Origin: a virus
Strand: one strand, 5' to 3'
IMG/VR virus record: IMGVR_UViG_3300025028_000002
Coordinates: 1-50,537 of that record
Length of the DNA stretch: 50,537 bases
The notes under the pieces are model-generated. The model ran no database searches and was not told where the DNA came from. It saw only the letters and a list, made by a program, of their open reading frames with translations. Position numbers and translations under genes: made by a program. Numbering within the stretch: position 1 is the stretch's first letter; every line of letters starts with the position of its first letter. Positions 1,209 through 50,537 of the stretch are shown here, one piece after another.

Positions 1209-1256
1209 TGGTGGGCCCAGTAGGACTTGAACCTACGACCAAAGGATTATGAGTCC
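1209..1256 (-). tRNA. tRNA 3' fragment with CAT anticodon; prophage attachment junction
   Basis: Read on the minus strand, this has an anticodon stem and loop (AGGA-CTCATAA-TCCT), a variable loop, a T-arm (GTAGG-TTCAAGT-CCTAC), the 3' acceptor strand TGGGCCC, A and CCA. The anticodon CAT fits tRNA-Ile2 (lysidine type) or tRNA-Met. The bases 5' of the anticodon arm do not form a D-arm or the matching GGGCCCA strand, so the gene is incomplete. This is the expected product of phage integration into a tRNA 3' half: phage DNA replaces the 5' half here, and the intact tRNA should be at the far end of the prophage, beyond the window. Confidence 0.85.
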
Positions 1257-1268
1257 TGTTAAGCGAGT

Positions 1269-13260: not shown

Positions 13261-14138
13261 TGGCAAGAGTTAAAGTCCCTGACGAGGTTTGGGAGGCCGC
13301 TCAAGCACTATGGGAAAGTGAGCCAAATATTTCTTATCAAGACGTTGTTGAGCATTTGCAAGAAGTTTACGGGGATAAGGCGCCGTCATCTAAATCCGCT
13401 GTGTACAATAGGGCGAAAAAGTATGATTGGAAGAAATTACCTGTCTTAGACTCTACACCAGAGACTAAAAGCAATAGCAAAAAACACAGAACGAACGAGA
13501 AAAGTAGTGAACGAAACGGCACCCTAAAAAAACAAGAGAACGATAAAAACAATAAAGTCAAAAACGAACCTAAAAATCAGGTTTACAGAACGATAATTAA
13601 TGAAACGCAGAAAACAAAACAGAAAATCGTTCTCTCAACTGAACAGCGTGCCAGCGTCATTATTAAACATAGAAATAGGCTGCACAACTTGGGTGCATTA
13701 GAAGATGCGATCACCATGCTATCACTTGACGTCGCAGAAAACGTACTAAATCCAACACCTATTGAGGTGGACCAAGTTAGTACTGGTGACAATGGTGATT
13801 ATAGGTTCTATGATGAAGAAGAGAACCCTATTGCTAAGAAGTTAGGGGTGATAAAAAGTCTAAGTTTTGTATTGGGTAATTTAACCCAGGCACAAAAGGT
13901 AATTGCTGAACAAGAAATGCCCATGTGTGGTATCAGCGCTGAAGACTTTAAGCAATCAGAACAAGAGCGCCGTTTAGGGGCGCTTGAAGCGCTGGCAGGT
14001 ATTGACGAAGAAGAGCGTGCGGCTCGTGAAAAACTGCATAGGGAGTTGCAAGAGCGGATGCAGTCGCTTACCCAGCTTGAGCATGACCCTGATTTTTTTG
14101 GTAATGATGATGTTGAATTTGATGATTTGGAGGAATGA
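13260..14138 (+). CDS. Putative small terminase subunit or related DNA-binding protein
   Basis: A protein of 292 residues. The N-terminus has a homeodomain-like helix-turn-helix often seen in small terminases (VPDEVWEAAQALWESEPNIS, then SKSAVYNRAKKYDWKK). A basic low-complexity linker spans about 65-120 (Lys, Asn, Glu-rich). The middle is helical, and the C-terminus is very acidic (DPDFFGNDDVEFDDLEE). The assignment rests on the helix-turn-helix and length; the large terminase lies 12 kb away, beyond the cargo. Confidence 0.45.
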   Translation: MARVKVPDEVWEAAQALWESEPNISYQDVVEHLQEVYGDKAPSSKSAVYNRAKKYDWKKLPVLDSTPETKSNSKKHRTNEKSSERNGTLKKQENDKNNKVKNEPKNQVYRTIINETQKTKQKIVLSTEQRASVIIKHRNRLHNLGALEDAITMLSLDVAENVLNPTPIEVDQVSTGDNGDYRFYDEEENPIAKKLGVIKSLSFVLGNLTQAQKVIAEQEMPMCGISAEDFKQSEQERRLGALEALAGIDEEERAAREKLHRELQERMQSLTQLEHDPDFFGNDDVEFDDLEE

Positions 14139-14368
14139 ATATGAAGTACGCAGTCTTTACAGATGGAATATTACCAGGTCTTAACAGCTTAGAGACTGAG
14201 CCGTTATCGTTTTTGAAGTGCAATCAAAAGGTTTATAACCAGTTTATGGAGCACGCAGACGACGAAGATATTGTTTACAGCGAACAACTTAAGGTTTTGG
14301 CTGTCTTAGACCGGCTGGTCAAAGTTGATAATAGTTTGGTTGATAATTCGCAAAGAAGATATAATTGA
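14135..14368 (+). CDS. Hypothetical protein at the cargo boundary, possibly truncated
   Basis: A protein of 77 residues (MNMKYAVFTDGILPGLNSLE...). It overlaps the previous stop by 4 bases, so it belongs to the same operon. It ends 30 bases before a palindromic element, and its last residues (DNSQRRYN) look unlike a natural end, so an insertion may have cut it. Function unknown. Confidence 0.5.
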   Translation: MNMKYAVFTDGILPGLNSLETEPLSFLKCNQKVYNQFMEHADDEDIVYSEQLKVLAVLDRLVKVDNSLVDNSQRRYN

Positions 14369-14397
14369 TCGAACATTTTATAATGCCGATGATTTAT

Positions 14398-14479
14398 AAC
14401 GAGACTTTCCTGAACTTTGTGTAACTGCTTATGGCCTGTTAAAAAATAGCAGTTACACAAAGTTTAGGAAAACCTCGTT
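14398..14479. mobile_element. Palindromic MITE-like or IS-end element
   Basis: Two 32-bp arms (14398-14429 and 14448-14479) are inverted repeats with three mismatches, around an 18-base centre. The arms contain CTGAACTTTGTGTAACTGCT and its near complement. A further partial copy, CTGCAGTTACACAGAATTC, follows at about 14486-14504. The motif resembles IS256-family terminal repeats as I remember them. It marks the left edge of the cargo. Confidence 0.6.
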
Positions 14480-14503
14480 GGCAGACTGCAGTTACACAGA
14501 ATT

Positions 14504-14525
14504 CGGTATATTCGAGAATATACCG
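14504..14525 (-). terminator. Perfect hairpin downstream of the Slam gene
   Basis: CGGTATATTC (14504-14513) and GAATATACCG (14516-14525) form a 10-bp stem with a 2-base loop. It follows the Slam stop on the minus strand. There is no strong T-run, so it may be a 3' stabilising hairpin rather than an efficient terminator. Confidence 0.45.
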
Positions 14526-14554
14526 TATCCACTTTCTGTCTCTTAACTTAGATT

Positions 14555-15958
14555 TTAAAAGCTTTTATTAATTTCAATGAACACCTTACTATCGTTTCTT
14601 TCATAAAGAGGTAAGTTGCTATCTATCTTTTTAAATTCATAATTAATCTTGGGAGAAAATCCATTCCAAACTAAGCCTTTATGGCCTATTGACGTGCTTA
14701 ATTGATACTCATCATCCCTTCTTTTCGTATTATACAAATAGTTGTTATCTAAAAAGTCCCTTTCAGAGTAGCGAAGGTTTGTCCTTACAATAAATTTATC
14801 TCCTGAAAATACGGCACCTGCTCGAAAACCTTTTTTATCTGAAGATTCAGACTTATCCTCAAGCCTGTCATAAACTGCATCTGCCCCCACATAAAGCAAC
14901 CATTTTAATTTAGGTTGATAAAAGAGAAGCAAAGAAGCGGCATTTAGGTGTCCATCGTAATTTTTAGCTAAATCATCTTCAGTATAGCTCTTTTGGATAT
15001 GTGAATAGTTACCTGAAGCTTGAAGTTTATTAGATAACTTTCGATTATACGAAAGCACACCACCATAATTTGTGCTGTAATCTTCTCCACCTAAAAAGTT
15101 CTTATCAACAAGTGCTGTAATTCCTAACGTCTGTTTAATATCTTTAAAGCGATAACCTAGGCTCGCGTTTGGAGTGATCTCACTATAATCTGAATTATCC
15201 CAATAATGAATACCTGCTAGTTCTGCATTAGCCAGTACGTAGTGATTGCCAAGTATATTTTTATCCTTACTACTATTTAGACTGTAGCGGACGCCGTTAG
15301 CCTTTTGTGGTAGAGAATCTTCACTTCTAATAAACACCGCCTCACCAAGAATAAGTTCCTTCAAATCAGAGGCTTGATTGACGTTATCTGTTTTTTCATA
15401 ACTAAGGTTAACATCGTAATTCCACTGCTGTGATTTTTTTATATCTTGTAAAACTTTATTTACAATCATCTGTATCTCAGATGATAAATGTGGTTCAACA
15501 ACCTCTAAGTGACTTTGAGCCTCATTGAACTGCTTATTTTCATATAACATCATTGCTAGATCAAAACGAGGATAATACAAGTTTGGTCGTTGCTGTATTA
15601 TGCTTTCATACAGCTTAATAGCCTCAGCCTGGAGACCGTTATGTCTGTAAAAAGCCCCCAATCCATAATTGTACAAAATAGGATCCATACTTGGTGTGTC
15701 TTTATACTCAGATAATAAATCTGAAAGCTTATTCCAATCTTTGGATACAATTGCAAAGTTTATTTGAGACTCAAGATTCTCAGTTGTAGGCATAGTAGTA
15801 GTAACTTGGATTGACTCAGCTTCTTCTTGACTCAATAATAGATCTGGTTTTATTTGGGGTTCTTCATCAAAGAAAATAGTTTGTGATGAAGGCAATTCCT
15901 GAGCATGCGCCACCGTTGCTACTGCAAAATAGATGATGGCATGATATTTTTTATTCAT
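14555..15958 (-). CDS. slam: Slam-type surface lipoprotein assembly modulator
   Basis: A protein of 467 residues. I start it at ATG 15958 because this gives a clean signal peptide, MNKKYHAIIYFAVATVAHA, with cleavage before QELPS. Residues about 80-180 are tetratricopeptide-like (LYNYGLGAFYRHNGLQAEAI, then YPRFDLAMMLYENKQFNEAQ). From about 190 to the C-terminal phenylalanine (INKSF) the sequence alternates like a 14-strand outer-membrane barrel (DUF560). This two-part plan and the length match Slam proteins, which move lipoproteins to the cell surface. Slams usually sit beside their substrate, and here the adjacent upstream gene is a lipoprotein with a TbpB-like barrel. It is not a phage structural gene and is likely cargo. 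Confidence 0.88.
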   Translation of the reverse strand: MNKKYHAIIYFAVATVAHAQELPSSQTIFFDEEPQIKPDLLLSQEEAESIQVTTTMPTTENLESQINFAIVSKDWNKLSDLLSEYKDTPSMDPILYNYGLGAFYRHNGLQAEAIKLYESIIQQRPNLYYPRFDLAMMLYENKQFNEAQSHLEVVEPHLSSEIQMIVNKVLQDIKKSQQWNYDVNLSYEKTDNVNQASDLKELILGEAVFIRSEDSLPQKANGVRYSLNSSKDKNILGNHYVLANAELAGIHYWDNSDYSEITPNASLGYRFKDIKQTLGITALVDKNFLGGEDYSTNYGGVLSYNRKLSNKLQASGNYSHIQKSYTEDDLAKNYDGHLNAASLLLFYQPKLKWLLYVGADAVYDRLEDKSESSDKKGFRAGAVFSGDKFIVRTNLRYSERDFLDNNYLYNTKRRDDEYQLSTSIGHKGLVWNGFSPKINYEFKKIDSNLPLYERNDSKVFIEINKSF

Positions 15959-15975
15959 AGAGATACCAATATGAC

Positions 15976-16019
15976 AAAAAAGCCGTCTGAAATACATAGC
16001 ATATTTCTAAACGGCTTTT
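15976..16019 (-). terminator. Terminator between lipoprotein and Slam genes, containing a Neisseria-type uptake 10-mer
   Basis: On the minus strand AAAAGCCGT pairs with ACGGCTTTT (plus 16011-16019 and 15978-15986), with an inner GAAAT/ATTTC stem and a run of six T. The plus strand contains GCCGTCTGAA (15982-15991), the core of the neisserial DNA uptake sequence, in the terminator arm. Slam would need read-through or its own promoter. Confidence 0.8.
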
Positions 16020-16044
16020 AAAGTAGTTAGATTAGAGCTAAGGC

Positions 16045-18279
16045 TTACTTAGTGATTTCGCTACGTGTACCACCAAAGCCAATAGCGTCTTTACCATTAA
16101 ACATTACTTTACCTGCAACTTCTTCAGCTTCTTTACCATAGAACCCTAAAGAGTAAGAGCCAGTTTTAAAAGATTGTTGCGCTGATGAAGAAATACTAGA
16201 ACCTGAGATAGTCCCTTTTTGTAAATCAACCACATCACCTAAACCAGTAATTTTTCCTGAACCAGTGCGAGCTTCAAAATCTACATCATATTTCAACTGA
16301 CCTTCTTTTAGCATATTTCCTGTCTCATAGTAGTTTCCATCTCTACTGAAAGCCTTTCCTGAATAGGTTGCTTGACCTAAAGTTGGTATAGAGGCACTTT
16401 CAGTTGCTAATCCTTTAACAGTAATACCCGAAGTTTCACTAAACCAAAGGCCTTCCCATTCACTGGTATAATCTCCAATGACAACGGAATACGGCTGATT
16501 ATAAACTACGTTATGTGAACGAGAATATTTGCAGTAATTATTGTAGCACGCTGAAGCTTCACCGCCTTGCCTTGCAGTTACCTCTCCTATTGAATATATT
16601 GCACTATTATGGTATTTACCTTTTGCTTCAGAAAGTGCAGCATCTAAGGCAATTTTTTCATTTTCAGCAACGATAGCATTTAACTTATTTTGAGCCTCTT
16701 CTCTACTAGCTTCTTTATTAGCTTCAGCATAAGCTACTGCCTGTTCTTCAGATAAACCTGCTTTTTTCGCTTTTGCAACTAATGCTACACGGTTTGCTTC
16801 AACCTTCTCTAAACGTTGCGCTTCTGCAATGTCAGCTAAAATCTTGTTTAGAGCACTTTCAGCATCTTTGGCACTGGCTTCTTTGTTAGCTTGAGCATAA
16901 GCGTTCGCTTGAGCCTCTGTTAAACCTGCTTTTTTCGCTTTCGCTACTAACGCTACACGGTTCGCTTCAATCTTCTCTAAACGTTGCGCTTCTGCAATGT
17001 CAGCTAAAATCTTGTTTAGAGCACTTTCAGCATCTTTGGCACTGGCTTCTTTGTTAGCTTGAGCATAAGCGTTCGCTTGAGCCTCTGTTAAACCTGCTTT
17101 TTTCGCTTTCGCTACTAACGCTACACGGTTCGCTTCAACACTCTTTAAACGCTCTGCTTCAATATCAGCTAAAATCTTGTTTAAAGCGCTTTCAGCATCT
17201 TTTGTACTAACTTCTTTGTTAGCTTGAGCGTAAGCATTTGCTTGAGCATCTGTTAAGCCTGCTTTTTTCGCTTTTGCTACTAACGCTACACGGTTTGCTT
17301 CAATCTTCTCTAAACGTTGCGCTTCTGCAATGTCAGCTAAAATTTTGTTTAGAGCACTTTCAGCATCTTTTGTACTAACTTCTTTGTTAGCTTGAGCGTA
17401 AGCATTTGCTTGAGCATCTGTTAAGCCTGCTTTTTTCGCTTTTGCAACTAATGCTACACGGTTTGCTTCAATCTTCTCTAAACGTTGCGCCTCTGCAATG
17501 TCAGCTAAAATTTTGTTTAGAGCACTTTCAGCATCTTTTGTACTAACTTCTTTGTTAGCTTGAGCGTAAGCATTTGCTTGAGCATCTGTTAAGCCTGCTT
17601 TTTTCGCTTTTGCAACTAATGCTACACGGTTTGCTTCAATCTTCTCTAAACGTTGCGCCTCTGCAATGTCAGCTAAAATTTTGTTTAGAGCACTTTCAGC
17701 ATCTTTTGTACTAACTTCTTTGTTAGCTTGAGCGTAAGCATTTGCTTGAGCATCTGTTAAGCCTGCTTTTTTCGCTTTTGCTACTAACGCTACACGGTTT
17801 GCTTCAATCTTCTCTAAACGTTGCGCTTCTGCAATGTCAGCTAAAATTTTGTTTAGAGCACTTTCAGCATCTTTTGTACTAACTTCTTTGTTAGCTTGAG
17901 CGTAAGCATTTGCTTGAGCATCTGTCAAGCCTGCTTTTTTCGCTTTTGCTACTAACGCTACACGGTTTGCTTCAACACTCTTTAAACGCTCTGCCTCAAT
18001 GTCAGCTAAAATTTTGTTTAGAGCACTTTCAGCATCTTTTGTACTAACTTCTTTGTTAGCTTGAGCGTAAGCATTTGCTTGAGCGTCTGTTAAACCTGCT
18101 TTCTTCGCTTTTGCAACTAATGCTACACGGTTTGCTTCAACTTTTTGTGCTTGTTGTTCTGGAGTTATGATTGGAGAGCTACCCCCTAATGATAAGCTTG
18201 ATCCGCCACTGCTGCATGCAACAACACCCAACCCAAATACAATAACGAAACTAAGTTTCGACAAACTTCCCAGTGACAT
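16045..18279 (-). CDS. Repeat-containing surface lipoprotein, probable Slam substrate
   Basis: A protein of 744 residues. The start at 18279 has an AGGAGAGAGG site and gives a lipoprotein signal, MSLGSLSKLSFVIVFGLGVV followed by AC; the lipobox cysteine is C22, trailed by SSGGSS as in TbpB and fHbp. Residues 47 to about 542 are nine helical repeats of 55-56 residues (VEANRVALVAKAKKAGLTDA... to ILADI). The last 190 residues form a TbpB/fHbp-like barrel ending GFYGKEAEEVAGKVMFNGKD, with a Cys pair (CYNNYC). The helical stalk would hold the barrel away from the cell. Its ligand is unknown: iron, haem, a host protein or a phage receptor are possible. It is upstream of and co-directional with Slam. 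Confidence 0.85.
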   Translation of the reverse strand: MSLGSLSKLSFVIVFGLGVVACSSGGSSLSLGGSSPIITPEQQAQKVEANRVALVAKAKKAGLTDAQANAYAQANKEVSTKDAESALNKILADIEAERLKSVEANRVALVAKAKKAGLTDAQANAYAQANKEVSTKDAESALNKILADIAEAQRLEKIEANRVALVAKAKKAGLTDAQANAYAQANKEVSTKDAESALNKILADIAEAQRLEKIEANRVALVAKAKKAGLTDAQANAYAQANKEVSTKDAESALNKILADIAEAQRLEKIEANRVALVAKAKKAGLTDAQANAYAQANKEVSTKDAESALNKILADIAEAQRLEKIEANRVALVAKAKKAGLTDAQANAYAQANKEVSTKDAESALNKILADIEAERLKSVEANRVALVAKAKKAGLTEAQANAYAQANKEASAKDAESALNKILADIAEAQRLEKIEANRVALVAKAKKAGLTEAQANAYAQANKEASAKDAESALNKILADIAEAQRLEKVEANRVALVAKAKKAGLSEEQAVAYAEANKEASREEAQNKLNAIVAENEKIALDAALSEAKGKYHNSAIYSIGEVTARQGGEASACYNNYCKYSRSHNVVYNQPYSVVIGDYTSEWEGLWFSETSGITVKGLATESASIPTLGQATYSGKAFSRDGNYYETGNMLKEGQLKYDVDFEARTGSGKITGLGDVVDLQKGTISGSSISSSAQQSFKTGSYSLGFYGKEAEEVAGKVMFNGKDAIGFGGTRSEITK
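16654..18141 (-). repeat. Nine tandem 165/168-bp repeats inside the lipoprotein gene
   Basis: Nine in-frame units: six with TDAQ, two with TEAQ and one degenerate terminal unit with SEEQ. Unit length is 168 bp, or 165 bp where the linker is IEAERLKS instead of IAEAQRLEK. The DNA of the middle units is nearly identical, favouring unequal recombination and changes in stalk length. Confidence 0.92.
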
Positions 18280-18377
18280 TCCTCTCTCCTCAATAATTAA
18301 AATAGTCTTCATTTTTTGTTAGATTCATTGCTTTTATTTAACAAACTTAATGTTTTTTATTTCAGCTTGTTACTAAA

Positions 18378-18406
18378 ATTTTACAATATTGTTATTATTT
18401 AGACAA
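18378..18406 (-). promoter_or_regulatory. Candidate promoter of the lipoprotein-Slam pair
   Basis: On the minus strand -35 TTGTCT (plus 18401-18406), a 17-base spacer and -10 TAAAAT (plus 18378-18383), about 100 bases before the lipoprotein start. Upstream, ATAATGATAAAATAAT (18441-18456) partly resembles a Fur box, but the match is loose in such AT-rich DNA. The cargo thus appears to have its own promoter, independent of phage control. Confidence 0.5.
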
Positions 18407-18570
18407 TATATTTAGTGATATATTTTTAAAAAAATATTTAATAATGATAAAATAATGGCAGAATTGTATGCCCTAGCAGAACCAGCTAAAAACACCTTAT
18501 AAAGTATTAATAGACCATCCAAAATAGACTATTATAATAAACCCACTTATAACAACTATTTTGGGTGTTT

Positions 18571-18964
18571 ATGTTTATTAAAGCCTACCTTCGTGCCTCA
18601 ACTAAAGAGCAAGACGCTAATCGTGCTAAAGATGAGCTTATTACACTTGCTGCAGAGCATGGTAATAAAATCGCAGCATTCTATACTGAAAACGAATCAG
18701 GAGCGATGCTAGAACGTCTACAACTAATGCAGCTCATTAATGATGCTTCTGAGGGCGATGTCATCTTAGTCGAACAGATAGCACGTTTAAATCAAATTGA
18801 CTTGGGATACCTTAATACCTTAAAAAGAAAACTATCCGCAAAACGTCTTTCTATGGTATCTAAAGAATTATATGGCATTACAACAAGATAATAGCTCTGA
18901 GTTTATGGACGGCGTACTATGCGCCATAAATGACATGTTGGCGGATTTAATTAAAGGTGGATAA
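18571..18964 (+). pseudogene. Decayed serine recombinase (resolvase/invertase) remnant
   Basis: The frame from ATG 18571 gives MFIKAYLRASTKEQDANRAK, the resolvase N-terminus with the catalytic serine in RAST, and later DVILVEQIARLNQID, matching the family's dRLsR region. It stops at 18891. A second frame from about 18872 continues with NSSEFMDGVLCAINDMLADL, the family's next conserved block, before ending at 18964. So a frameshift and a C-terminal loss are visible, and no DNA-binding domain remains. It is probably a relic of the element that brought the cargo. Confidence 0.7.
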
Positions 18965-19166
18965 TAGAATAGTTTGAGTGATTTTTGATTATTAAGTGAA
19001 GTTTTTAATATAATCTGAAGATGCGTCTACTATGAAGGTAGTTAGAAGCTAATCTAGTACCAGCCTTCTATAATGATTTCCCAAAATGTCCTTATTATTT
19101 AGCTAGCCAGCTCGTAAATGTTAAAAGCCTATCTCCATCCTATAAACTTATTTAATTAAAATCACC

Positions 19167-19913
19167 ATGTATCAAAATTTGCCAAATATCTGTTATGAAT
19201 GTGGGATACCACTAAATAAAGAAAACTTAACGAAAGAGCACGTACCGCCTAAATGCTTTTTCTCTAAAAGCGACCGATCTTCTTTGATTACTGTTCCATC
19301 ATGTAAAGAACATAATGGTGGTAAATCTGATGACGATGAACATCTTTTACAGATGATATCTATTCAGATATTAGCTAATGATAAAGGACAAGATATTGGG
19401 GTTAATAAAGCCTTAAGAGGTTTATGTAGAAATAAGAAGAAAATTAAGAGTTTAGCTAGCACTGCAACTTTAGTGTATTTCAAAGAAAAGGAGACAGATA
19501 GTTTTAAACAGACTTTTGCATTTAAATTTGATGAACAAAAGTTTAACAATGGGATCTTCTCTATCTGCAAAGGCCTTTATTATTATGAGTTTCATAAAGT
19601 CTTTAATGGGGATATTGTAATTTATAATGAATTTCAAATATCACTTGATGATAATTCTATACATAGAAATAAGACTTATGAGAAAAAGAGAGCTTTCATA
19701 AAGAAATATTTTTCTAATATTGAAAGAAAGGGGGAAAATCAAAGTATTTTTTATTATCAGGTGCTGAAAGGTTCACAAGAGTTAAATTTTTCTTATGCTA
19801 TAAGGCTTTGTTTTTATGAAGGCATTGGTATCTTAGCTTTTCTGAAAGAAAAAAAGATTTTTAAACTCAATGCCCTCACTGCTGCTTTAGATAGGCAAGG
19901 AAGATATTTTTAG
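19167..19913 (+). CDS. HNH endonuclease-like cargo protein
   Basis: A protein of 248 residues. A zinc-binding start (C9-x2-C12) is followed by TKEHVPPKCFF (H25, C30) and CKEHNGGKSDDDEH (C46, H49, N50), the layout of HNH nucleases. The rest (about 70-248) is AT-rich in codon use, Lys/Phe/Tyr-rich and not recognised. The low GC compared with the phage genes on both sides suggests recent acquisition. Phage-borne HNH proteins act in packaging, homing or defence against other phages. Its place beside the lipoprotein cargo and away from terminase favours a moron or defence role. Confidence 0.6.
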   Translation: MYQNLPNICYECGIPLNKENLTKEHVPPKCFFSKSDRSSLITVPSCKEHNGGKSDDDEHLLQMISIQILANDKGQDIGVNKALRGLCRNKKKIKSLASTATLVYFKEKETDSFKQTFAFKFDEQKFNNGIFSICKGLYYYEFHKVFNGDIVIYNEFQISLDDNSIHRNKTYEKKRAFIKKYFSNIERKGENQSIFYYQVLKGSQELNFSYAIRLCFYEGIGILAFLKEKKIFKLNALTAALDRQGRYF

Positions 19914-20006
19914 AGTACTTATAAGGCTTATTTCAAATTTTTGTAATTGAAGTCAAATTTGCTTCTTCACCAATTGCAAAATACACGATATGACAATACC
20001 CCTCCA

Positions 20007-20077
20007 GGAACACTCAAAGCCCACAACCCGCCAGCAATGCCATAATCTAAGCCACACGTACAGTATTTATAAGGCTT
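20007..20077 (+). promoter_or_regulatory. Late promoter F with RBS hairpin
   Basis: GGAACACTC (20007-20015) is a one-base variant of the box shared by six late promoters. The -10-like CATAAT lies at 20041-20046, with the standard 24-bp gap. AAGCC (20049-20053) can pair with GGCTT (20073-20077), which contains the AAGG ribosome-binding bases of the next gene. Confidence 0.6.
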
Positions 20078-20081
20078 TATC

Positions 20082-23072
20082 ATGGCAACTTATCTTAACT
20101 ATGATGATCAAGGCTTCATCGTTGGTACCAAGCGGCTAGAAAGCGGCATTAAATCCATTGGTGAAGATACCCAAGAAATCATACAGATACTAAAATCACA
20201 AAATCAGATTAACCAAACGGTATTAAACCGCATAGCTAAATCCAATGAGCGTATAGCCAACAAAAAGTCTATGCGTATTAAGGGCGTGGTGCCTACTTAC
20301 GATCCCACAAGCCCAGGGCGTAACAATGCCAGCCAGCCAAGCATGCAAGGCCAGGCGCAGTCAAAGCAGCAACACAGGCAGCAATTAAGTAGCGCAAGCC
20401 AGCCAGCCCAAAAAGAGGCAAGGGCCGCTGGCAGGAAGAGTAGCGACACGCTTAGTAATGTCACCTCAAGCGCTAAAGTCAAATCAGGTTCAACACCGGC
20501 CAATAGAGCCAACAATCAAAACGATAGCGGCTCAAGCGGTGCCAATAGATCAAGTGCTGGTAGAGGTGGAGCCCAGAGCCCAGAAGCGGCAAATAACGCC
20601 GCCGGTAGCGTACCTAGTGCAACTGGTGCAACACGTAAGACAAACAACTCAACTGGCAAAAATGGGCGTGAGAAGAAGAAAAAAGAAAGCGATCGTGACG
20701 AGCTAGGCCGTTTTACAGCCAAAGAAAAAACGCTATTCGACTCACTATCTAAGATAGCCAAGAGTGGCCGTACAGGTTATGGCAGTTATGGCGGTGCTCA
20801 AAACATTGATCCGTTGATCGCCTCGGTGAACGAGGTAAAAGACATTGCATCGCCTATTTTTAATATGGCCATGAAAACTGGCAAGATGGGCGGCGCAGCT
20901 GGCAAGGCGGCATTAAGGGCCGGCAGGTTCTCATTATCTAAATACAAAAGCTTGAAGCGTAAAGAGCCATTACCAAAGGATCAGGCAAGACACAATAAGC
21001 AGAACGAGGAAACGCTGGGCGAGATCCTAAAGCGTATGCCAGGCAGTGATAATCCCTTATTTAGCAGGCTAGGTCGTGGCTTGGGTCTTTTAGGTAGAGG
21101 TAAAGGTAAAGGCAAAGGCAAAGGCAAAGGCAAGGATAAGGATAAGGACCGCAAAGGCAATAAAAATAAAGGCAAGGGTATTAAGTCTATCTTGGCTGGT
21201 GGAGCTGGCGCGGCTGTTTTAGGCGCCGGTAAGATTGGCGGTGAGGGTGTCAAGAAGGCAGCCAAAGTGGTTGGTAGTGCTAAAGTTTTAGGGCCGTTAG
21301 CGACGGCGGTTGGCATGGGCAACTTGATTGGCCAGTGGAAAGAGCTTGACCACAAAGAGAAATCAGAAGATATAGGTGGCCTGGCAGGCGGTAGTGTCGG
21401 TGCCGTTGCTGGTGGAGCACTTGGTACGGCATTGATACCAATTCCGGTGGTAGGTACCGCCATTGGGGCGGCCGTGGGTGGCTGGCTAGGTAACGAGGGC
21501 GGCGAGGTTTTAGGCCGTACAGCTTCGCCTCATATCATGTCATGGACCGATAGCGTTAAGGCTTACAACTTACCTCAAAAAATGCAAACTAAGTGGGAAA
21601 GTGGATTGGCGCCGGTCTTTTCTAAGCTAAGCGAGGCGGCCGGCGGCATGAAGTCGTGGCTATCCAGAATGGGTGATGGGGTTAGCAGCTTTTTTGGGGG
21701 CGGTGGTGATGGTTCGGGCGGCTGGAAAGTTGATTTTGGTTCAGGGTTAACATCAGCCAAAGACGGCGTTACCTATAAAATGGGTGCTAAAAACTTTAGC
21801 GGCGGTGTTATTGATTGTTCAGGCTGGGTTGATCAATTAAACAAAGATACCGTAAGACAGATTGAAGAGCAGCTAGGGCCAGAGGCGGCTAAACGTGCTC
21901 GTATTAATGCAGGCAATGGTGCAGCCGGTATTATTCAGTCAGAGGAAAAGAAAGGGCACATGGTAGCCACAGCGAACAGCTGGGCTCAACTAGATATCAA
22001 TAAGTTGCAGGCTGGCATGGTTATCGGTGAGTCACGTGGGGAGCATGCAAGAAAAGAAGGCAGATACAAAGACATCGGCCATATTGTGCAGATCATTGAA
22101 GAAAACGGCGTTAAATACGTGTCTGAATCTACATCAGCTAAAGGCAAGGACGGTAAAAGCGGTGTAAGAAAAACAGAGCTTAGCGAGTACATCAAAAACC
22201 TTAATGGCCGTCAATTTGGGGTGACAGTAGTTGACCCTTACAAAGAGCTTAGAGGCCAGTTAAGCGGCGGCGGCGGTACGGTTGATGTTAGCTCAAGCAG
22301 ACTAACTTCACAAAGTGAAAAGACTAGACGTGATCAGGCTATGCAATACTTCATGTCTCAAGGTTGGACTAAGCAGCAAGCCGCTGGTATTGTCGCTAAC
22401 ATCCAAAAAGAAAGTAGGTTCGACCCTAGAGCTCAAGGGGATAAAGATAAAAACGGTGTATATAGGGCACATGGCTTAGCTCAATGGCGAGATAGCAGAC
22501 TTGCAGACTTCCGTAGCACTATGGGTAAGTCAGTACAGCAAGCGTCGTTCGAAGAGCAGTTAGCTTTTATTCAGTATGAGCTAACGAAGGGTAAAGAGAA
22601 GGCGGCTGGTAATAAGCTAAAACAAGCCAAAACAGCAGGCCAGTCCGGGGCTATTGTGTCAGAGCACTACGAGCGACCAGGTGCAGTTGAGGCTGAAAAG
22701 AGAGAGCGTGCGAAAATTGCAGAGGGTATCTATAACAATACAGCGGTTCAGTCGGTTCAACAAAAAACCAAAACAACTAACAGTGTGTTAGGTGTTAATG
22801 TTGGTGGCTTGGCCAATAACTTTGTTGCAGGTAACACGCCAGCCTACCTACCAGCCAGCCAGTCAATAGGCCTCGATTTGGGCGCGTCAATACTGAAAAA
22901 TGTACTTAACATCCCTGAAATGCCTTCGTTTAAATTGCCGCTGGCAGGTGGTGGCCTAGACAAGCCTATCGTTGTTCAATCTAACAATGAGAGCATAGGC
23001 CAAAATGTATCAGACAGGGATTTGGCACATGCAATTACCGGTGGTATCGGTATGAGCAGAGCTTGGGGTTAG
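20082..23072 (+). CDS. Virion protein with NlpC/P60-like and phage tail lysozyme domains
   Basis: A protein of 996 residues. Residues 60-330 are Ser/Ala/Asn/Gly-rich and disordered, with a Gly-Lys repeat near 343-350. Several hydrophobic Gly/Ala-rich segments lie at about 368-465, which could enter or cross membranes. An NlpC/P60-like region has VIDCSGW (C about 578) and GHIVQI (H about 666). Residues about 745-885 match the phage tail lysozyme domain (SQGWTKQQAAGIVANIQKES with the catalytic glutamate, then GLAQWR and ERPG). It probably opens the cell wall and helps DNA passage at infection. The first late gene, with its own promoter. Confidence 0.75.
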   Translation: MATYLNYDDQGFIVGTKRLESGIKSIGEDTQEIIQILKSQNQINQTVLNRIAKSNERIANKKSMRIKGVVPTYDPTSPGRNNASQPSMQGQAQSKQQHRQQLSSASQPAQKEARAAGRKSSDTLSNVTSSAKVKSGSTPANRANNQNDSGSSGANRSSAGRGGAQSPEAANNAAGSVPSATGATRKTNNSTGKNGREKKKKESDRDELGRFTAKEKTLFDSLSKIAKSGRTGYGSYGGAQNIDPLIASVNEVKDIASPIFNMAMKTGKMGGAAGKAALRAGRFSLSKYKSLKRKEPLPKDQARHNKQNEETLGEILKRMPGSDNPLFSRLGRGLGLLGRGKGKGKGKGKGKDKDKDRKGNKNKGKGIKSILAGGAGAAVLGAGKIGGEGVKKAAKVVGSAKVLGPLATAVGMGNLIGQWKELDHKEKSEDIGGLAGGSVGAVAGGALGTALIPIPVVGTAIGAAVGGWLGNEGGEVLGRTASPHIMSWTDSVKAYNLPQKMQTKWESGLAPVFSKLSEAAGGMKSWLSRMGDGVSSFFGGGGDGSGGWKVDFGSGLTSAKDGVTYKMGAKNFSGGVIDCSGWVDQLNKDTVRQIEEQLGPEAAKRARINAGNGAAGIIQSEEKKGHMVATANSWAQLDINKLQAGMVIGESRGEHARKEGRYKDIGHIVQIIEENGVKYVSESTSAKGKDGKSGVRKTELSEYIKNLNGRQFGVTVVDPYKELRGQLSGGGGTVDVSSSRLTSQSEKTRRDQAMQYFMSQGWTKQQAAGIVANIQKESRFDPRAQGDKDKNGVYRAHGLAQWRDSRLADFRSTMGKSVQQASFEEQLAFIQYELTKGKEKAAGNKLKQAKTAGQSGAIVSEHYERPGAVEAEKRERAKIAEGIYNNTAVQSVQQKTKTTNSVLGVNVGGLANNFVAGNTPAYLPASQSIGLDLGASILKNVLNIPEMPSFKLPLAGGGLDKPIVVQSNNESIGQNVSDRDLAHAITGGIGMSRAWG

Positions 23073-49821: not shown

Positions 49822-50537
49822 CTACACAAGACTGACATTCTCTCCAAAGGCTAACCCCGCAAGCCCTGCGGTTAAAATGTTTTTGGCAGCATTGATATCA
49901 CGATCATGGGTGGTTTTGCACTCAGGGCAATCCCAGTGGCGTGTATCAAGCGCCAAGAAATTCAAGGTATATCCACAGTTGGAACAGCGTTTAGAGCTTG
50001 GGAAAAATTGGTCTATCTTAGAGATAGTCCGACCAGCCCAGTCCGCTTTGTATTCCAACTGGTTAACAAAGTTACCCCAACTGGCGTCAGCGATATGCTT
50101 GGCCAGCTTAGGATTTTTAATCATGTTTTTTATTCGAAGCGATTCAACACAAATAACTTGGTTTTCGTTTATTAATTTGCGGGACAACTTGTGCAAGTTA
50201 TCCAATCGACAATCGGAGATTTTGGCGTGAATACGAGCAACTCTCATCTTAGCCTTAGCGCGATTAGCCGAGCCGAGTTTTTTTCGACTCAAGGCGCGCT
50301 GGGCTTTGGTGAGTTTAGTGGCGTATTTAGCAGTCAGGCGAGGATTGTCGATTTTAATACCGCTATCGGTAACAAACAGGTGCTTAATGCCAACATCAAT
50401 ACCGATATTACTATCAGACTTTGGCAAGACCTGATTTTCAAACTCGCACAGGCACGATACAAAGTAACGTCCTGCACAATCTTTGGAAATGGTAATGGTG
50501 CTTGGTGCGCTTGGCAGTTGCCTAGACCAACGTATAT
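49822..50537 (-). CDS. tnpB: TnpB-type RNA-guided nuclease, C-terminal part (runs off the window)
   Basis: At least 238 codons are visible. RuvC-like residues are intact: NIGIDVGIKHLF (first Asp), VICVESLRIKNM (Glu) and DRDINAAKNI (last Asp), with the zinc finger CSNCG...CPEC. The frame continues upstream of the Met near 50427 (ITISKDCAGRYFVSCLCEFE), so the protein is the normal long form starting outside. TnpB is an RNA-guided DNA nuclease that preserves the element's copies at the donor site. No tnpA is seen in the window. Confidence 0.9.
   Translation of the reverse strand, partial: IRWSRQLPSAPSTITISKDCAGRYFVSCLCEFENQVLPKSDSNIGIDVGIKHLFVTDSGIKIDNPRLTAKYATKLTKAQRALSRKKLGSANRAKAKMRVARIHAKISDCRLDNLHKLSRKLINENQVICVESLRIKNMIKNPKLAKHIADASWGNFVNQLEYKADWAGRTISKIDQFFPSSKRCSNCGYTLNFLALDTRHWDCPECKTTHDRDINAAKNILTAGLAGLAFGENVSLV

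Follow-up and report, generated by a model that had tools for sequence, protein, structure and literature searches.

Slam proteins (surface lipoprotein assembly modulators) are the outer-membrane translocons of type 11 secretion (T11SS) and are known from bacterial chromosomes, where a protein with a TPR N-terminal domain and a 14-strand barrel is encoded next to a surface lipoprotein ending in a TbpB-like barrel (Hooda 2017, PMC5449769; PMC9090332). A stalked type of substrate is represented by Pls/TepS of H. parahaemolyticus, in which a long alpha-helical repeat region precedes the handle and C-terminal barrel; this substrate needs its Slam homologue for surface exposure, as found in E. coli (PMC12282271). 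Similar pairs occur on Acinetobacter plasmids (A. lwoffii pAVAci94, A. soli pAS903-1-4). Here we describe a Slam and lipoprotein pair that differs from the known systems in being carried by a phage, IMG/VR virus record IMGVR_UViG_3300025028_000002 (positions 1 to 50,537; the whole stretch of 50,537 nucleotides is called the window). We consider it probable, at roughly 0.72, that the pair is a phage cargo operon displaying a stalked lipoprotein and converting the lysogen in an adhesin-like manner.

A first-pass annotation made from the window's letters alone had proposed a lipoprotein with a CSSGG start, a nine-repeat helical stalk and a TbpB/fHbp-like barrel, with a Slam-type translocator directly downstream, and profiles, repeats and predicted folds bear out both assignments. 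The Slam protein matches PF04575 SlipAM (DUF560) over its full length (E 4e-57) and PF24575 TPR_Slam at its N-terminus (E 6e-20). Its AlphaFold2 (AF2) model, of moderate confidence (mean predicted local distance difference test score, pLDDT, 65.9), contains seven TPR-like helices and 14 barrel strands; the nearest solved structures found by Foldseek were PelB and BcsC, which likewise consist of TPR plus barrel, and TPR folds were among the matches. The gene probably starts at 15958 (MNKKY) and lies 47-86 nt past the lipoprotein gene on the same strand. The lipoprotein clears the NCBIfam threshold for "Slam-dependent surface lipoprotein", and FHBP_C (E 8e-20) and TbpB_B_D (E 1e-8) match it too. 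Its second ATG (18279), preceded by a GAGGAG ribosome site, is the better start, and direct reading of the N-terminus (...GLGVVAC-SSGGSS) reveals a signal peptide with a lipobox and a CSSGG-type start. From these profiles and folds we regard the two genes as a true Slam and Slam-substrate pair and predict surface translocation of the lipoprotein.

The lipoprotein ends in the eight-strand barrel typical of TbpB and fHbp according to FHBP_C, slam_lipo, Foldseek and structure comparison, so that structure prediction found both this fold and the Slam-type barrel. The best Foldseek matches of the head were fHbp (E 4e-9), HphA, HpuA and TbpB, and the best structural alignment was to chain 4ayn_A (Z 17.2, root-mean-square deviation 2.1, 110 residues aligned); the first half of the head is modeled at low confidence. 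In the AF2 model of four repeats plus head, each stalk repeat (DNA period 168 bp) forms one helix of 36-37 amino acids and one of 10 amino acids (pLDDT 80-90). A sequence search of the PDB with two stalk repeats gave no match, and a second, structural comparison hardly covered the stalk. The repeats are two-helix units of 55/56 amino acids and differ from the EEARKA motif of Pls, a difference judged by eye rather than by direct comparison with Pls, and plasmid kin have AAAEK repeats. The virus is represented by two contigs that are 100% identical over 10.4 kb, the second of which includes the left junction and stops within the repeat array, so the exact repeat number may be affected by assembly over this 1.5 kb tandem repeat.

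The closest known pair is chromosomal, in genome G287 (locus L061), with a Slam 85% and a lipoprotein 70% identical to those of the window, and in the tree these two Slams group together with full support (100/100). DNA homology extends from 14516 to 18456, interrupted by a gap in the head. Relative to L061, dN/dS (the ratio of nonsynonymous to synonymous substitution rates) is 0.21 for the Slam gene and 0.08 for the last three stalk repeats, indicating purifying selection on both, and the C-terminal half of the head retains an amino acid identity of 0.73-0.83. The outer head half belongs to another type, with nucleotide identity of 0.42-0.64 (0.42-0.54 over most of residues 565-674) and dS mostly >1 or saturated. 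A conserved export part joined to an exchanged outer part would fit an outer face that meets a changing partner, be it a surface ligand, immune-type pressure or phages. The L061 pair shares the promoter region and has a stalk of eight repeats; it differs from the window pair in having an IS3-like gene beside it and ordinary chromosomal genes around it.

Features of the Slam and lipoprotein block and its borders, by position in the window
Positions	Strand	Feature	Basis
14398-14515	.	Degenerate insertion-sequence-like ends, inverted copies of GAACTTTGTGTAACTGC, Slam-side border	Inverted repeat and genome matches
14504-14525	-	Terminator-like hairpin 3' of the Slam gene, 9-pair stem	Fold; partly conserved at the same place in L061
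14555-15997	-	Slam (surface lipoprotein assembly modulator, T11SS outer-membrane protein)	Pfam domains, AF2 model, Foldseek
15978-16019	-	Probable attenuator, a terminator-like intergenic hairpin followed by a T-run	Folds, alignment
16045-18312	-	Stalked Slam-dependent surface lipoprotein, 755 codons	NCBIfam slam_lipo, FHBP_C, TbpB_B_D
16048-16290	-	C-terminal barrel of fHbp/TbpB type, conserved; may be the part recognized by Slam	Fold comparison
16291-16680	-	Variable head half, residues 545-674, type unlike that of chromosomal kin	Comparison with L061
16633-18138	-	Stalk of nine "EANR" helical repeats, 55/56 amino acids each	Repeat analysis, AF2 of four repeats
18378-18406	-	Predicted promoter TTGTCT-17-TAAAAT	Sequence match
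18466-18946	+	Truncated, frameshifted plasmid serine resolvase and upstream region	Nucleotide comparison
19167-19913	+	HNH-like gene, separate cargo	Weak PF14279 match, E 0.005

The block had been credited with its own promoter, and a predicted promoter and terminator agree with this. Single promoter-like and terminator-like matches in the region are not above chance by themselves, but the predictions gain weight because the upstream sequence is conserved with L061 up to 18456 and homology at the other end begins at 14516. The range originally drawn, 14398-19913, does contain a real operon, but this spans only about 14504-18456, the rest being insertion-sequence-like ends, a resolvase remnant and an HNH-like gene. 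Between the lipoprotein and Slam genes, a hairpin with T-run is present in 14/14 aligned operons from Acinetobacter and Psychrobacter-like genomes (the window, L003, L004, L005, L008, L022 and L061-L068), with 95.6% of cells paired, four pairs showing double changes, and the signal lost when partners were slid. It probably acts as a partial terminator that would hold Slam below the level of its substrate. The 3' arm of the hairpin in the window and L061 has the sequence TTCAGACGGC, complementary to the core of the Neisseria uptake sequence. We rejected CCGTCTGAA as a genome-wide uptake motif; it is rarer than its control in Psychrobacter-like genomes, where the Neisseria-like core is not a general motif. 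A search of the window against Rfam gave no match.

Flanking phage genes lie on the strand opposite to the pair. The phage group is temperate: the window phage has a CI-like repressor gene, and two related prophages sit within 3.1-3.3 Mb chromosomal contigs. The host family is Moraxellaceae, because the genomes with related prophages were taken from the family to which an Acinetobacter lwoffii genome belongs; Psychrobacter is the likely genus. Homology with related IMG/VR phages ends at 14116-14139 and returns at 19996-20001 (L010, L011, L013) or 18930 (L012). The corresponding gap is occupied by type I restriction and LrgAB-type genes in L017, LysR, LrgAB and SDR in L018, type I restriction and an HNH-like gene in L019, RosmerTA in L020, RosmerTA-like and DpnII restriction-modification genes in prophage L074, and a HicB-like antitoxin in prophage L075. 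In L076-L078, three prophages that are less closely related, only 72-127 nt separate the flanking genes. On these breakpoints, differing occupants and near-empty sites, window 14139-19996 can be recognized as a cargo site of this temperate phage group, with contents swapped between close relatives. As homology to related phages picks up again to either side of the block, the pair and the phage are not two separate elements, and we likewise rejected their being separate records, given the left junction in the second contig. The Slam pair is absent at this site from every related phage examined, and together with the predicted promoter and terminator this gives it the hallmarks of a phage moron. 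Like prophage morons and cargo hotspots in general, it is an autonomous transcription unit at a variable site, but unlike their usual toxin, defense and immunity genes its predicted function is surface display.

We infer that a temperate Moraxellaceae phage acquired, as cargo, an operon for surface display that works autonomously. Within a lysogen, the operon's own promoter would drive its transcription in the direction opposite to the phage genes; the lipoprotein would be made, lipidated and taken to the outer membrane, from where, as in characterized Slams, the translocon would move it to the cell surface. The intergenic hairpin would probably pass only part of transcription to Slam. The nine-repeat rod would keep the fHbp/TbpB-fold head at a distance from the cell, and exchange of the outer head half between alleles, with stalk, C-terminal barrel and Slam staying similar, is what would be expected of a part that faces outward and serves as ligand or antigen. 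On this analysis, lysogens very likely display the protein. Most likely it would act much as an adhesin or biofilm protein does, altering what the lysogen's surface binds.

The company that the pair keeps at the cargo site is the sole reason to favor its chief rival, superinfection exclusion, in which the displayed rod and head would obstruct or mask a surface receptor and so keep other phages from adsorbing. Most other occupants of the site are anti-phage or toxin-antitoxin genes (type I and DpnII restriction-modification, RosmerTA, HicB-like antitoxin), and phage-excluding prophage surface lipoproteins are known in Streptococcus thermophilus (Ltp, PMC3952083). However, the site also houses the non-defense cargo LrgAB and SDR, and the kin of the pair are ordinary chromosomal or plasmid genes beside which no anti-phage neighbors were recognized; the variability of the head is compatible with either role. 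We therefore consider a function as defense cargo rather unlikely, and its more specific form, a phage-encoded dedicated translocon exporting a rod-mounted head as a surface shield, unlikely.

A Slam of this group (E 1e-60 or better) is present in 17/348 Moraxellaceae genomes. G287 also holds a related prophage, with other genes in its cargo site. The more remote kin (47-55%) sit in chromosomes, on Acinetobacter plasmids or, in L064, on a small contig that has a MobA/MobL-like gene as judged by sequence start; the order lipoprotein then Slam on the same strand is common to the kin operons used. The plasmid pairs share with the window the gene order, a GFGGTRGEITK-type C-terminus and the intergenic hairpin. 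They differ in that BrnTA, lipoprotein and Slam lie between pdif sites, the stalk is partly or wholly (AAAEK)n and the Slam is 48-50% identical; no pdif site was found within 5 mismatches around the window pair. The repeat IEANRxxLxxKAKxAGLxxxQA is shared with pAVAci94, where it is mixed with AAAEK repeats and a resolvase lies on the same side, and occurs in one copy in pAS903-1-4. The Acinetobacter plasmid lipoproteins in L003, L004 and L005 have very long (AAAEK)n stalks, for which the annotation "histone H1-like" is misleading.

The borders of the window pair may point to a similar source. On the Slam side there is an inverted repeat (14398-14429/14448-14479) whose ends are near-identical to GAACTTTGTGTAACTGC copies scattered over Moraxellaceae genomes, mostly just ahead of an ATG. 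On the other side, the resolvase remnant is 84% identical at the nucleotide level to plasmid resolvases of Psychrobacter, Moraxella and Acinetobacter, with its frame broken and its C-terminal part missing. Since insertion-sequence-like ends and a broken plasmid resolvase flank the pair, the simplest history is probably capture from a plasmid or plasmid-like chromosomal island. The HNH-like gene also occurs in phage L012/L019 without the Slam pair, and 18930-20200 is 95% identical in L019.

These same borders, and the finding of the pair in one virus only, would suit a passive hitchhiker, a plasmid or chromosome fragment that an insertion sequence or resolvase brought in and from which neither phage nor lysogen gains. 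We think this quite doubtful, as neither gene is broken, a promoter, ribosome site and terminator are predicted for them, and dN/dS is low, though the divergence includes time outside the phage. Some points do weigh against the adhesin-like cargo operon that we prefer. The pair is known from a single virus (two contigs), so selection for its carriage within the phage cannot be demonstrated from several phages, and both the right-hand junction and the continuity of the repeats depend on one contig; conserved breakpoints and intact genes would argue against misassembly. Capture of iron or heme from a carrier by a TbpB-, haemophilin- or HpuA-like receptor is suggested by the head fold but is very improbable, because no TonB-dependent receptor or heme genes were recognized beside the window pair or the examined kin (a distant A. 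baumannii Slam locus, by contrast, has heme oxygenase and TonB genes), no Fur box was found within 6 mismatches near the pair (best 7/19 mismatches), and the lipoprotein is of the long-helix-stalk type, unlike TbpB, haemophilin and fHbp.

Of the lysogenic conversion envisaged in the first-pass annotation, carriage within one phage at a cargo site used by its group is supported, but an iron, heme or complement (factor H) role is not. The same pair was not seen in other Moraxellaceae prophages; its kin are chromosomal or plasmid-borne. Searches of IMG/VR and INPHARED (Slam and head queries; tblastn) found no other phage-cargo Slam, although such scans depend on short peptide matches and may overlook distant Slams. 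They also returned two "Acinetobacter phage MD-2021a" records (L006), which were rejected as phage cargo because their Slam (23% identical) lies among chromosomal genes. The L006 contig carries heme oxygenase, a FecA-like gene, Slam and many chromosomal genes, and its Slam stretch resembles a bacterial chromosome. In the open literature searched we recognized no paper on a phage-borne Slam or T11SS. As far as found, this two-gene surface-display unit, already known from chromosomes and plasmids, is apparently new in a virus.

Elsewhere in the window, the 3' half of a tRNA-Met-like gene with CCA end (1213-1260, minus strand) adjoins the first phage genes. ARAGORN found no complete tRNA there. 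This is probably the attachment site, and the first 1.2 kb of the window may on that account be host DNA. A 1262-amino-acid phage protein (36991-40779) with numerous diverged repeats (66 and 153 bp units) is possibly a tail fiber. At the right end of the record, an open reading frame (49822-50427, minus strand) is 44% identical to a transposase-like protein of L074, and the contig may therefore end at an insertion sequence.

Slam substrates are both vaccine antigens and major proteins of the cell surface, and little is known about how they spread. With the pair intact as cargo in a phage and its close kin on chromosomes and plasmids, there would be a concrete route for the transfer of a surface trait between Moraxellaceae, and the hairpin conserved between the two genes hints at a general rule governing the ratio of substrate to translocon. 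Lysogenic conversion by a dedicated outer-membrane translocon becomes testable.

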